Assembly: GCF_004357995.1 (NCBI RefSeq)
Contig: NZ_SMTK01000001.1
Coordinates: 434,001 to 498,000 of the forward strand
Length of the DNA: 64,000 bases
Direction: 5' to 3'
Source of the DNA: Arthrobacter crusticola
GTDB taxonomy: Bacteria > Actinomycetota > Actinomycetes > Actinomycetales > Micrococcaceae
The notes below the pieces were generated by a model. The model saw only the letters and a program-made list of their open reading frames with translations, was not told the DNA's origin and ran no database searches. Shown piece after piece: positions 48,916-51,500 of the stretch (position 1 is the first letter of the stretch; every line of letters begins with the position of its first letter). Position numbers and translations under genes: made by a program.

Positions 48916-49581
48916 TCAGAAGCGGGCCGAGAAGCCGCCGTCGGCGAAGAGGAGCTGCCCGGTGATCCAGCGCCCTTCCGGGGAGATGAGGAAGGAGACG
49001 ACGCCGGCAATGTCCGCTGGGGTGCCGAGGCGGCCCAGCGGGTGCTGGGGGGTCAGGGTGTTGCGCAGGTCCTCGTTCATCCAGCCCGTGTCGATGGGGC
49101 CCGGGCTGACGACATTGGCTGAGATGCTGCGCGGGCCGAATTCGCGGGCGGCGGAGATGACGATGCGGTCCAGGGCTCCCTTGGAGGCGCCGTAGGGCAG
49201 GTTGCCGGTGGTGTGGTCGCTGGTGAACGCGATGATGGCCCCGCCGGTGGGTGGTGCCTGCCGGGCAAAGGCGGCGATCAGCAGCAGGCTGGCGCGGGCA
49301 TTGACCGCGGTGTGAAGGTCGAAGCTCTCCGCGGTGGTGTCCAGAATCCCCGTTTCCACGTCGTGGGCGTGGCTGAGGATCAGGGCGCTGACCGGCCCGC
49401 GGTCCCGGGTGACGGCGGCGAAGAGTTCGTCGGGGCCGGTGGGCTCGGACAGGTCGCAGGGGTAGTCCGTGGTGTCCCGGTCGCTGGTGGCGACCTCCCA
49501 TCCCTCGGATTTCAGCCGGGGCACAATCCCTGCGGCGATGCTGTTGCTGCGGGCGGCTCCGGTAACGAGGGCAAGAGGCAT
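48916..49581 (-). CDS. SDR family oxidoreductase
   Basis: A 221-residue short-chain dehydrogenase. The cofactor-binding start is ALVTGAARSNSIAAGIVPRL (TGxxxxxx-I variant), with NARASLLLIAAF, catalytic Ser in IIAFTSDHTTG and the YGASK motif (Tyr and Lys of the active site), then NVVSPGPIDTGWM and a C-terminal GQLLFADGGF. Substrate unknown. ATG 49581 is chosen with AGAAGG just upstream. It is divergent from the ABC-F leader. Confidence 0.92.
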   Translation of the reverse strand: MPLALVTGAARSNSIAAGIVPRLKSEGWEVATSDRDTTDYPCDLSEPTGPDELFAAVTRDRGPVSALILSHAHDVETGILDTTAESFDLHTAVNARASLLLIAAFARQAPPTGGAIIAFTSDHTTGNLPYGASKGALDRIVISAAREFGPRSISANVVSPGPIDTGWMNEDLRNTLTPQHPLGRLGTPADIAGVVSFLISPEGRWITGQLLFADGGFSARF

Positions 49582-49648
49582 GCCTTCTACCGTAGTCCAC
49601 GGCGTGGACCACCGGCAGGGCCGAGGTGACGCAGGCGACGCCGCGCCC

Positions 49649-49679
49649 TTGCGCCCGGTGATCCCCCTGTGCCTATAGT
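49649..49679 (+). promoter_or_regulatory. Promoter of the ABC-F leader transcript
   Basis: TTGCGC (49649-49654) and TATAGT (49674-49679) with a 19-base spacer. The -10 element is near consensus and ends six bases before the ATG of a three-codon ORF, so the transcript probably begins with that ATG. Confidence 0.6.
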
Positions 49680-49685
49680 TGGTCC

Positions 49686-49697
49686 ATGTTCCTGTGA
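49686..49697 (+). CDS. Three-codon leader ORF (Met-Phe-Leu-stop) of the ABC-F gene
   Basis: ATG TTC CTG TGA, placed at the predicted transcription start. Its TGA overlaps the first base pairs of a hairpin arm that covers the ABC-F ribosome-binding site. Very short leader ORFs upstream of antibiotic-resistance ABC-F and erm genes mediate ribosome-stalling attenuation in known systems. With three codons this cannot be proven coding from sequence alone. Confidence 0.55.
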   Translation: MFL

Positions 49698-49760
49698 TCC
49701 TCGTTCTTCTCCTGCGCCCGCGGCGCATGCCCGGCAGGAGGTCGATCGACGTCGAGGATC
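49696..49760 (+). promoter_or_regulatory. Ribosome-binding-site sequestering attenuator upstream of the ABC-F gene
   Basis: GATCCTCG (49696-49703) is perfectly complementary to CGAGGATC (49753-49760), which contains the GAGGA ribosome-binding site five bases before the ABC-F ATG. Within the loop, CTCCTGC (49709-49715) pairs with GCAGGAG (49734-49740), and as an alternative TGCGCC (49713-49718) pairs with GGCGCA (49722-49727); the two inner stems are mutually exclusive. A ribosome held on the leader ORF would mask the 5' arm and free the ribosome-binding site. Confidence 0.7.
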
Positions 49761-49763
49761 CCC

Positions 49764-51500
49764 ATGAGCGCTTCGTCATCTTCCCGCCCAACCCGCGCCG
49801 TTGCGCATCTCCGGGTTGAGGGCATCTCAATTTCCTTCGGTGCCCGGCGCGTGCTTACCGATGTCTCATTCACGGTCCCGGCCGGCCGGACCGGTGTCAT
49901 CGGGGACAACGGATCGGGCAAGACAACCCTGCTGCGCATCCTTGCCGGCCTGCTGCCGCCCGACCGGGGGACGGTGTCGGTGACGCTTCCCGGTGTCGAC
50001 CGGCCGCGCATCGGGCTGCTGCACCAGGAACCTCCCTTCGGGCCGGCAGCATCGATCGCCGAAGCGCTGGAATCCGCTGTAGCCCCAGTCCGCGCGGCGG
50101 CCGACGCGGTCACCGCCGCGGGGCTGGCCCTTGCACGGCGCCCCGATGATGAGGCGGCGGCCACCGTATACGCGGAGTCGCTGGAGGCCGCGGAGCGGAT
50201 CGGCGCTTGGGATGTCGATGCCCGCATCGCGGCCATGGTGGCGGGTCTTGGCCTCGCGGATTTGCCGCCGGACGCGGAAACGGGACAGCTCTCCGGGGGG
50301 CAGCGCTCACGGCTGTCCCTCGCCTGGCTGCTGCTGAGCATGCCCGACGTGCTCCTGCTGGATGAGCCGACAAACCACCTCGACGACAACGCCGCCGGCT
50401 ACCTGCGCAACCTGCTGGTGTCGTGGCCAGGGCCGGTGCTCATCGCCAGCCACGACCGGGCGTTCCTTGACGAGGTGGTGACGTCGCTTCTCGACCTTGA
50501 TCCTGCGCCGTTGCCCCACGCTGTGGCTGGACCCCTGGTCGGGGACGGCGATGGAGCGGCCATCGGCGCGGTGCGGTTCACGGGCACGTACACCGGGTAT
50601 CTTCACGCCCGCCTCGATGCCCGGGAACGATGGGCCCGCCAATACCGCGACGAACAGGCGCAGCTCTCGCGGCTGCGAGCCGCGGCCCCGTCCAACTACG
50701 TGGTGGGACACGAGGACTGGTCGCCGCGGTCCGAAGCCCGCAGTTCGGCCAAGTTCTACTCCGACCGGAATGCCAAGACGGTTTCCCGGCGGGTCAACGA
50801 CGCGAGGGCCCGCCTTGAGGTCCTTGAGGAGCGGCAGATCCGCAAGCCGCCCAGGGAACTTCGCTTCCAGGGACTCACCGTGGGCGGGGGATCCGGGTCG
50901 GGGCGACAGCGCACGGGGCCGGTCCTCACCGTTGCGGGGGCCGCCGTCGCCGGACGCCTCGGTGCCACCTCGCTGGCGCTCAGAGCGGGGGAGAAGGTGC
51001 TGATCACGGGACCCAATGGATCGGGCAAATCCACGCTGCTGCTCCTGCTCGCCGGAGCGCTTCTCCCTGATTCCGGAACCGTGGCGGCGGCACCCTCCCT
51101 GCGGACCGGCCTCCTGGCCCAGGATGTCGACCTGCCCGACCCCCGCGGGCGCGGCCCCGGACGCACCACCCGGCGGGCCTACGAGGATCTCGTGGGGGAG
51201 GCGCGTGCCGAACAGGTTCCGCTGAGGACCTTTGGCCTGATTGCACCACGGGACGAAAACCGGCCCGTTGCGGCGCTCAGCGTGGGTCAGCAGCGCCGGC
51301 TCGCGCTGGCCGTGCTGCTTGCCGACCCGCCCGATGTGCTGCTGCTCGATGAACCCACCAACCATCTCTCCCTTGTTCTTGCCACGCAGCTGGAGGCGAC
51401 GATCCCGGACTATCCGGGCGCCGTCGTCGTCGCGTCCCACGACCGGTGGCTGCGCCGCACCTGGAAGGGGAACCAGCTCAGCCTCACCGGGGTGCGGTGA
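49764..51500 (+). CDS. ABC-F family ATP-binding protein (ribosomal protection type)
   Basis: A 578-residue soluble protein with two ABC domains and no membrane region. Domain 1: Walker A GDNGSGKTTLL (about residue 50), signature LSGGQRSRLSLA, Walker B DVLLLDEPTNHLD. A linker region (about 275-375) containing YTGYLHARLDARERWARQYR and many charged residues corresponds to the P-site tRNA interaction motif. Domain 2: GPNGSGKSTLLLLL, LSVGQQRRLALA, DVLLLDEPTNHLS. Such proteins dislodge antibiotics or resolve stalled ribosomes. The attenuator upstream favours drug-inducible expression. Convergent with the GAP gene, four bases apart. Confidence 0.92.
   Translation: MSASSSSRPTRAVAHLRVEGISISFGARRVLTDVSFTVPAGRTGVIGDNGSGKTTLLRILAGLLPPDRGTVSVTLPGVDRPRIGLLHQEPPFGPAASIAEALESAVAPVRAAADAVTAAGLALARRPDDEAAATVYAESLEAAERIGAWDVDARIAAMVAGLGLADLPPDAETGQLSGGQRSRLSLAWLLLSMPDVLLLDEPTNHLDDNAAGYLRNLLVSWPGPVLIASHDRAFLDEVVTSLLDLDPAPLPHAVAGPLVGDGDGAAIGAVRFTGTYTGYLHARLDARERWARQYRDEQAQLSRLRAAAPSNYVVGHEDWSPRSEARSSAKFYSDRNAKTVSRRVNDARARLEVLEERQIRKPPRELRFQGLTVGGGSGSGRQRTGPVLTVAGAAVAGRLGATSLALRAGEKVLITGPNGSGKSTLLLLLAGALLPDSGTVAAAPSLRTGLLAQDVDLPDPRGRGPGRTTRRAYEDLVGEARAEQVPLRTFGLIAPRDENRPVAALSVGQQRRLALAVLLADPPDVLLLDEPTNHLSLVLATQLEATIPDYPGAVVVASHDRWLRRTWKGNQLSLTGVR

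Follow-up and report, generated by a model that had tools for sequence, protein, structure and literature searches.

Short mini-ORFs of conserved length, predicted to be leaderless, in the predicted Shine-Dalgarno-sequestering leaders of an ABC-F gene of Arthrobacter crusticola and its actinobacterial relatives

Three-codon upstream ORFs (uORFs) in front of ABC-F genes are already known from vmlR, cplR and are5sc, and the comparisons made here draw on the accounts in PMC10201436, PMC8546547, PMC12421871, PMC9226507, PMC4633059 and PMC6723617. In Firmicutes, the described leaders of cplR, vmlR, vmlR2 and lsaA carry the uORFs MR[I/M], MIN, MK[L/Q] and MAGN, and early arrest by lincomycin or retapamulin is expected or has been shown for such leaders. 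Induction of vmlR is reported to rely on arrest at the initiation of its three-codon uORF, with a 30S toeprint 16 nt downstream of the A of the start codon (PMC9226507), and short ABC-F uORFs are expected to stall ribosomes with little need for context (PMC10201436). The are5sc gene of Streptomyces coelicolor is likewise an actinobacterial ABC-F gene with a three-codon uORF (MLV). Stalling at its start codon by lincosamides, tiamulin (a pleuromutilin) and pristinamycin IIA (a streptogramin A), and not by erythromycin, was described from toeprints on a template in which ATG replaced TTG (PMC12421871). The leaderless mRNAs and small ORFs of mycobacteria have RTG at the transcription start and are translated without a Shine-Dalgarno (SD) sequence; the accounts listed above do not describe them as drug attenuators of ABC-F genes.

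The window analysed here is a 64,000-nt stretch of the 3.67-Mb genome of A. crusticola, which is G+C-rich by reading. The region of interest is intergenic, between a minus-strand gene (oxidoreductase-like by eye) and an ABC-F gene on the + strand (49764..51500), and all features given below are on the + strand. A -35-like TTGCGC (49649-49654) is followed, after a 19-nt spacer, by the -10 hexamer TATAGT (49674-49679). Six bases after TATAGT stands a mini-ORF of three codons, ATG TTC CTG TGA (Met-Phe-Leu; 49686..49697, with ATG at 49686-49688 and TGA at 49695-49697), which is predicted to be leaderless, the A of its ATG being the predicted +1 of the mRNA. The stop codon is overlapped by the anti-SD strand GATCCTCG (49696..49703, nt +11 to +18 of the predicted mRNA), which is complementary at 8/8 positions to CGAGGATC (49753..49760), the SD strand of the ABC-F gene, with core GAGGA, paired in the predicted OFF state. 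The first-pass annotation had reported both the six-base distance and the perfect pairing, and on reading the sequence its coordinates hold. Between the two strands lies a bulged hairpin (49709..49740) composed of CTCCTGC, bulge GCC, CG, bulge C, GGC, loop GCAT, GCC, CG and GCAGGAG, in which the base stem pairs CTCCTGC (49709-49715) with GCAGGAG (49734-49740). A small second hairpin, GTCGATCGAC (49741..49750), was recognised from sequence and fold in the window and in some near relatives, and does not recur as a common element of the wider alignment.

The locus resembles the Firmicutes leaders in its ABC-F gene, its uORF of three or four codons, its predicted SD sequestration (as in cplR) and the variation of uORF residues among relatives. 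It differs from vmlR, whose uORF has its own SD sequence, in that the mini-ORF is placed to start the mRNA. Whereas the leaders of vmlR and cplR contain a transcription terminator, a generic scan of 49400-49900 found none, and the locus has a different, conserved hairpin; with no terminator found, control is most likely exerted at translation. The are5sc leader differs as well, being described with a 232-nt 5'UTR, a ribosome-binding site for the uORF, a TTG start and a terminator/antiterminator model. The same generic scan of 49400-49900 returned no sigma-70 promoter; on reading, TTGCGC fits only three of the six -35 bases, and the 19-nt spacer is beyond the range that the scan accepts.

The ORF at 49764-51500 begins with ATG at 49764 and encodes a two-domain ABC-F ATPase of 578 aa. 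Its best NCBIfam model was TlrC/CarA/OleB/SrmB, with 379.5 bits against a cut-off of 800. The gene is patchy in the genus, occurring in 7/38 genomes, its own included (E below 1e-250), and patchy presence within a genus has been used as a criterion for antibiotic-resistance (ARE) proteins (PMC6723617); judged from sequence, the product is a probable ribosome-protection (ARE-type) protein. Plasmid records held distant ABC-F relatives only (15 records, below 60% identity). Because a scan of contigs likewise yielded mostly distant ABC-F genes, the comparison presented here rests on a separate search of genomes.

Loci were picked by ABC-F protein search only, so that their choice was independent of the leader. 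The family set comprised 56 places in 55/395 genomes (E up to 1e-100), and the upstream DNA was read for all 56. For the order set, 81/376 genomes matched and each contributed a single place; after removal of five that the family set already contained, 76 were used. A strict detector required TANNNT, a gap of 5-9 nt and then ATG or GTG opening an ORF of at most four codons within the last 230 nt; a looser detector accepted [TC]ANNNT, 5-11 nt and ORFs of one to four codons within the last 420 nt. With the strict detector, a mini-ORF was found in 49/56 family loci (shuffles 1.4%, reverse strands 0/56) and 56/76 order loci (shuffles 0.4%, reverse strands 0/76), and with the looser detector in 68/76 order loci (reverse strands 4/76). 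The presence of a mini-ORF before the ABC-F gene is not due to chance.

By eye, a mini-ORF and a main start were assigned in 51/56 family loci. Among the others, L118 has a decayed leader, with CTG where a start codon would stand and a hairpin that lacks its 3' half, L130 shows no mini-ORF in 420 nt, and in L145 and L159 the match starts inside the gene, which puts the leader out of view. In L165 the ORF is five codons long, ATG AAG ACT TGC AGC TAG, and begins seven bases after TACATT. As to the order loci missed by the looser detector, the match starts inside the gene in L301, L308 and L314; in L310, ATG TGG ATC TGA can be read by eye behind a hexamer that does not fit the detector pattern; and no mini-ORF was found with that detector in L300, L312, L257 and L259.

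Composition was tallied over 118 ORFs, namely the 51 of the family and 67 of the 68 of the order. Three codons were counted in 91, four in 18, two in 8 and one in 1, a distribution that is partly by construction, as the family ORFs were sought as two or three codons after the start; among the order ORFs, for which one to four codons were allowed, 57/68 have three. The start codon is ATG in 92 and GTG in 26, and the stop codon is TGA in 108, TAG in 8 and TAA in 2; the dominance of TGA is partly explicable by pairing. In L315, ATG TGA stands after the -10, about 70 nt before the main start, where relatives such as L294 have ATG TGG ATC TGA; this is possibly a one-codon ORF or a decayed one. Eleven loci of family f38, training genomes included (L213, L214, L216, L219-L224, L234, L235), have the mini-ORF GATGTGATCTGA or one close to it, and GATGTGATCTGA is possibly readable as ATG-TGA or as GTG-ATC-TGA. 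Five-codon mini-ORFs occur in L227 and L231 of family f45.

The 118 ORFs comprise 68 distinct sequences and encode 44 peptides, so that length is kept and residues are not. The first-pass annotation had proposed comparing orthologues for a conserved MFL ORF and covarying stems; the length of the mini-ORF is conserved and stems covary, whereas MFL itself is not conserved. Codon 2 encodes K, L, W, F, R, S, T, I, E or N in all 117 ORFs that have one, with Ala, Gly, Pro, Val and Asp absent from this position, and only 2/117 have G at +4. Such a bias would be unexpected in GC-rich genomes, and might be due to a 5' end that opens readily or to what the arrested complex prefers. The restriction of codon 2 in 117/117 ORFs is also what could be said for a peptide-specific arrest as in erm and msr, in which a macrolide, phenicol or oxazolidinone stalls the ribosome on a given tripeptide, and MRL, a macrolide-arrest motif, is present in 7/68 order ORFs. 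The number of different peptides (44) and the occurrence of one- and two-codon ORFs speak against it. The attenuators of erm and msr need a longer peptide, which makes the likeness to them drawn in the first pass a loose one; the near match is with the three-codon uORFs of vmlR, cplR and are5sc. Erythromycin, moreover, fails to stall ribosomes on the three-codon are5sc uORF (PMC12421871). As MFL is not conserved, a peptide-specific, macrolide-type arrest is quite unlikely. Taken together with the reported effect of vmlR uORF identity on induction by lincomycin (PMC10201436), the codon-2 bias indicates that some need for context may exist.

The distance between the -10 hexamer and the mini-ORF is narrowly distributed. 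The gap from TANNNT was 6-8 nt in 49/49 strict family matches, and RTG stood 6-7 nt after the -10 in 47/49 family and 52/56 order strict matches, which on sequence grounds is the expected place of a leaderless start. A gap of 9-10 nt was seen in 14/68 loci of the order set, where the mRNA perhaps has a few leading bases. The layout extends to a second ABC-F type of the same genus, which is 37-40% identical: ATG-X-X-stop was read in the same place in 6/6 paralogue leaders (L015-L020; a seventh candidate, L021, was left out of this count), with different surrounding sequence. Predicted pairing of the SD with the first 24 nt was above 0.5 in 3/6 of these leaders. A relative, Arthrobacter globiformis (L046), has ATG AAG TCC TAA after CAGGCT.

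The leader of the window folds with -34.6 kcal/mol (z -2.09; 9/200 shuffles at least as good), and the single-sequence fold contains both the outer stem and the hairpin. Taken alone, this fold is modest against shuffles, and its significance comes from conservation among relatives. In 32 compact family leaders, the hairpin and outer stem together had 84.6% of cells paired in register, against 36-53% in slid versions, with 48 double-change cells versus 21.5 after shuffling and 10 pairs changed on both sides versus 6.7. The +1 slide gave 11 pairs with a double change versus 10 in register, and 28 such cells versus 48. The hairpin in 46 class-wide leaders had 91.8% of cells paired, 62 double-change cells versus 24.7 shuffled and a covariation score of 0.309 versus 0.153, in an alignment (A3) some of whose members were gathered with a model of this structure, which biases it in favour of the structure; its 18 further pair types showed no excess over shuffles (17.3). 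Conservation is strong not only in the stems but also in the bulge letters, GYC and one base H. In the 32 family leaders, a different hairpin register that pairs GYC with GGC gave 84.0% versus 84.6% of cells paired and 8 versus 10 double-change pairs, and was not adopted; it is a possible transient form. The outer stem was harder to align (68.5% of helix 1 cells paired in the 32 family leaders) and, by eye, seems to move as a unit, with TGATCC/GGATC near the window and TGACACCACC/GGTGGTGT in family f36.

Two mutually exclusive inner stems had been suggested for the window. CTCCTGC/GCAGGAG is conserved, as the base of the bulged hairpin; TGCGCC/GGCGCA is present in the window and was rejected as a conserved feature, its columns being paired across 32 relatives in 63.9% of cells versus 64.6% when shuffled, and the proposed exclusivity is unsupported. 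No Rfam family reached its gathering threshold in the window, and 49600-49900 gave only sub-threshold miRNA and snoRNA scores.

The range of the element was examined with two models, R1 (ORF and structure) and R2 (hairpin only, without the ORF). R1 matched 26/396 order genomes and 21/394 class genomes, and 40 of the 42 loci inspected precede an ABC-F gene. Alignment A2 left out 10 of these 42, namely near repeats (L168, L172, L174, L178-L181), two loci for their length (L209, L210) and L190, which ends at a contig end and has a normal leader there; A2 holds L199 with wrong coordinates, and A3 omits L199, L185, L192, L194 and L198. L194 and L198 are the two loci that precede another gene: GTG ATC CTC TGA and the hairpin are followed, 100-150 nt on, by a 58-aa protein (MRNVFPY...YRRH) that had no Pfam match and may be a second target of the leader. 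The class scan with R2 gave 58 places in 55/394 genomes, and at E up to 4.4e-5 all 29 of 29 places lie directly before an ABC-F gene. Fourteen of these 29 come from genomes outside the model training set, and 12/14 have an ORF of one to five codons by eye, 11 of them after [TC]ANNNT. In the other two, L237 and L239, no mini-ORF is visible and the hairpin lies between the apparent end of an upstream gene and the ABC-F gene. The R2 places with E above 1e-4 (29/58) are mostly chance, 27 of the 29 having neither an ABC-F gene in the examined stretch nor a mini-ORF; the other two are L326, which stands ahead of an ABC-F gene, and L317 (the L194 place), which stands ahead of a small gene.

The ORF and the hairpin do not always occur together. 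R2 matched 28/76 order leaders at E below 0.001, and 42/76 order loci have a mini-ORF with no model-detected hairpin. A loose two-strand hairpin pattern (reverse strand 2/76) recovered 10 of these 42, some long-looped, leaving 32 order loci that keep the mini-ORF and in which a hairpin was found by neither test. These 32 loci make the ORF and the anti-SD strand look like the core of the element and the hairpin like an accessory. They also bear on the reading of the bulged hairpin as a ligand- or protein-binding element, that is, a riboswitch or a site of autoregulation by the ABC-F protein or a ribosomal protein, with the mini-ORF merely marking the 5' end: the conservation of GYC and H goes beyond the needs of a spacer hairpin and would fit such a site, yet the ORF outlives the hairpin in the order and M-X-X-stop recurs in six paralogue leaders within different surrounding sequence. 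We regard a binding element of this kind as unlikely.

Sequestration of the SD was predicted from base-pairing probabilities. Pairing of the SD with the first 24 nt was 0.99 in the window and above 0.5 in 43/51 family and 42/67 order leaders. Its mean in the family was 0.73, against 0.47 in shuffles that keep the ORF and the last 18 nt and hence leave the internal anti-SD of four-codon ORFs undisturbed. The SD partner is centred on nt 5-18 in 43/51 family leaders. When nt 1-17 were blocked to mimic a 70S ribosome on the mini-ORF start codon, mean SD accessibility in the 51 family leaders rose from 0.16 to 0.43, versus 0.26 to 0.38 in shuffled leaders. In the order set it went from 0.22 to 0.30 in 26 loci with a model-detected hairpin (pairing above 0.5 in 11/26) and from 0.22 to 0.32 in 41 loci without one (pairing above 0.5 in 31/41); the modelled ON/OFF contrast is weak outside the family.

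The reading that we consider probable is a ribosome-mediated attenuator of translation that responds to ribosomes frozen on a leaderless start codon or immediately beyond it. The first-pass annotation had proposed a leaderless three-codon ORF and an SD-sequestering structure before the ABC-F gene, with stalling at initiation or on the first codons; as a prediction this stands, given the conserved length and covarying stems, and early stalling is expected. Transcription would begin on the mini-ORF start codon or no more than a few bases away from it, giving an mRNA that opens with RTG, on which 70S ribosomes would load without an SD sequence. In the absence of drug, ribosomes would translate the mini-ORF, which mostly has three codons and ranges from one to five, and depart. 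The stretch from about nt +5 to +20 would pair with the ABC-F SD, as predicted by folding and with covariation shown, and the gene would be silent. If a drug arrests the ribosome on the start codon or as the first peptide bond forms, the 70S would be parked over about nt +1 to +16, covering the anti-SD strand and freeing the SD, and the ABC-F protein would then be made and clear the drug. Given the vmlR toeprint at 16 nt, a start-codon complex would cover much of the SD partner at nt 5-18. The bulged hairpin would serve as an accessory module that brings the anti-SD and SD strands together, and its bulges may have a contact role. As the length of the ORF is kept and its sequence is not, the predicted inducers are drugs acting at the first bonds with little need for context, by analogy not macrolides but pleuromutilins, lincosamides and streptogramin A.

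The same RNA state would arise from anything that detains a 70S on the first codons, and the element could therefore report slow initiation or stress in early translation in general, such as a shortage of initiation factors or of the amino acid of codon 2 or 3, instead of sensing a drug class; WblC attenuation is described as answering many ribosome drugs as well as amino acid starvation (PMC12421871). We hold this to be improbable, as all 29 confident class matches precede ABC-F genes and codons 2-3 are not those of one amino acid. A broader form of the attenuator reading is offered tentatively, at somewhat short of an even chance: a class-wide element that reports the first steps of leaderless 70S ribosomes, in which the ORF shrinks to one or two codons in some lineages, the peptide is irrelevant apart from the codon-2 bias and any drug freezing the first 70S would induce ribosome protection; the bulged hairpin may here add a direct contact to the ribosome or the drug.

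The 5'-terminal, SD-less, residue-variable and class-wide form with a bulged hairpin was not found in searches of open-licence PMC papers. If the attenuator reading is true, these leaders would make up a large natural sensor family that responds to initiation on leaderless mRNAs. Leaderless translation is reported to be common in mycobacteria and has been little studied under drug, and Rfam would gain a new family with strong covariation. The question whether a 70S ribosome on a 5'-terminal start codon is sufficient as a gene switch, whatever the peptide, becomes testable, and the natural length series of one to five codons is a ready test set. For the organisms themselves, the attenuator reading leads one to expect that ribosome protection is inducible in many actinobacteria, both environmental and commensal.
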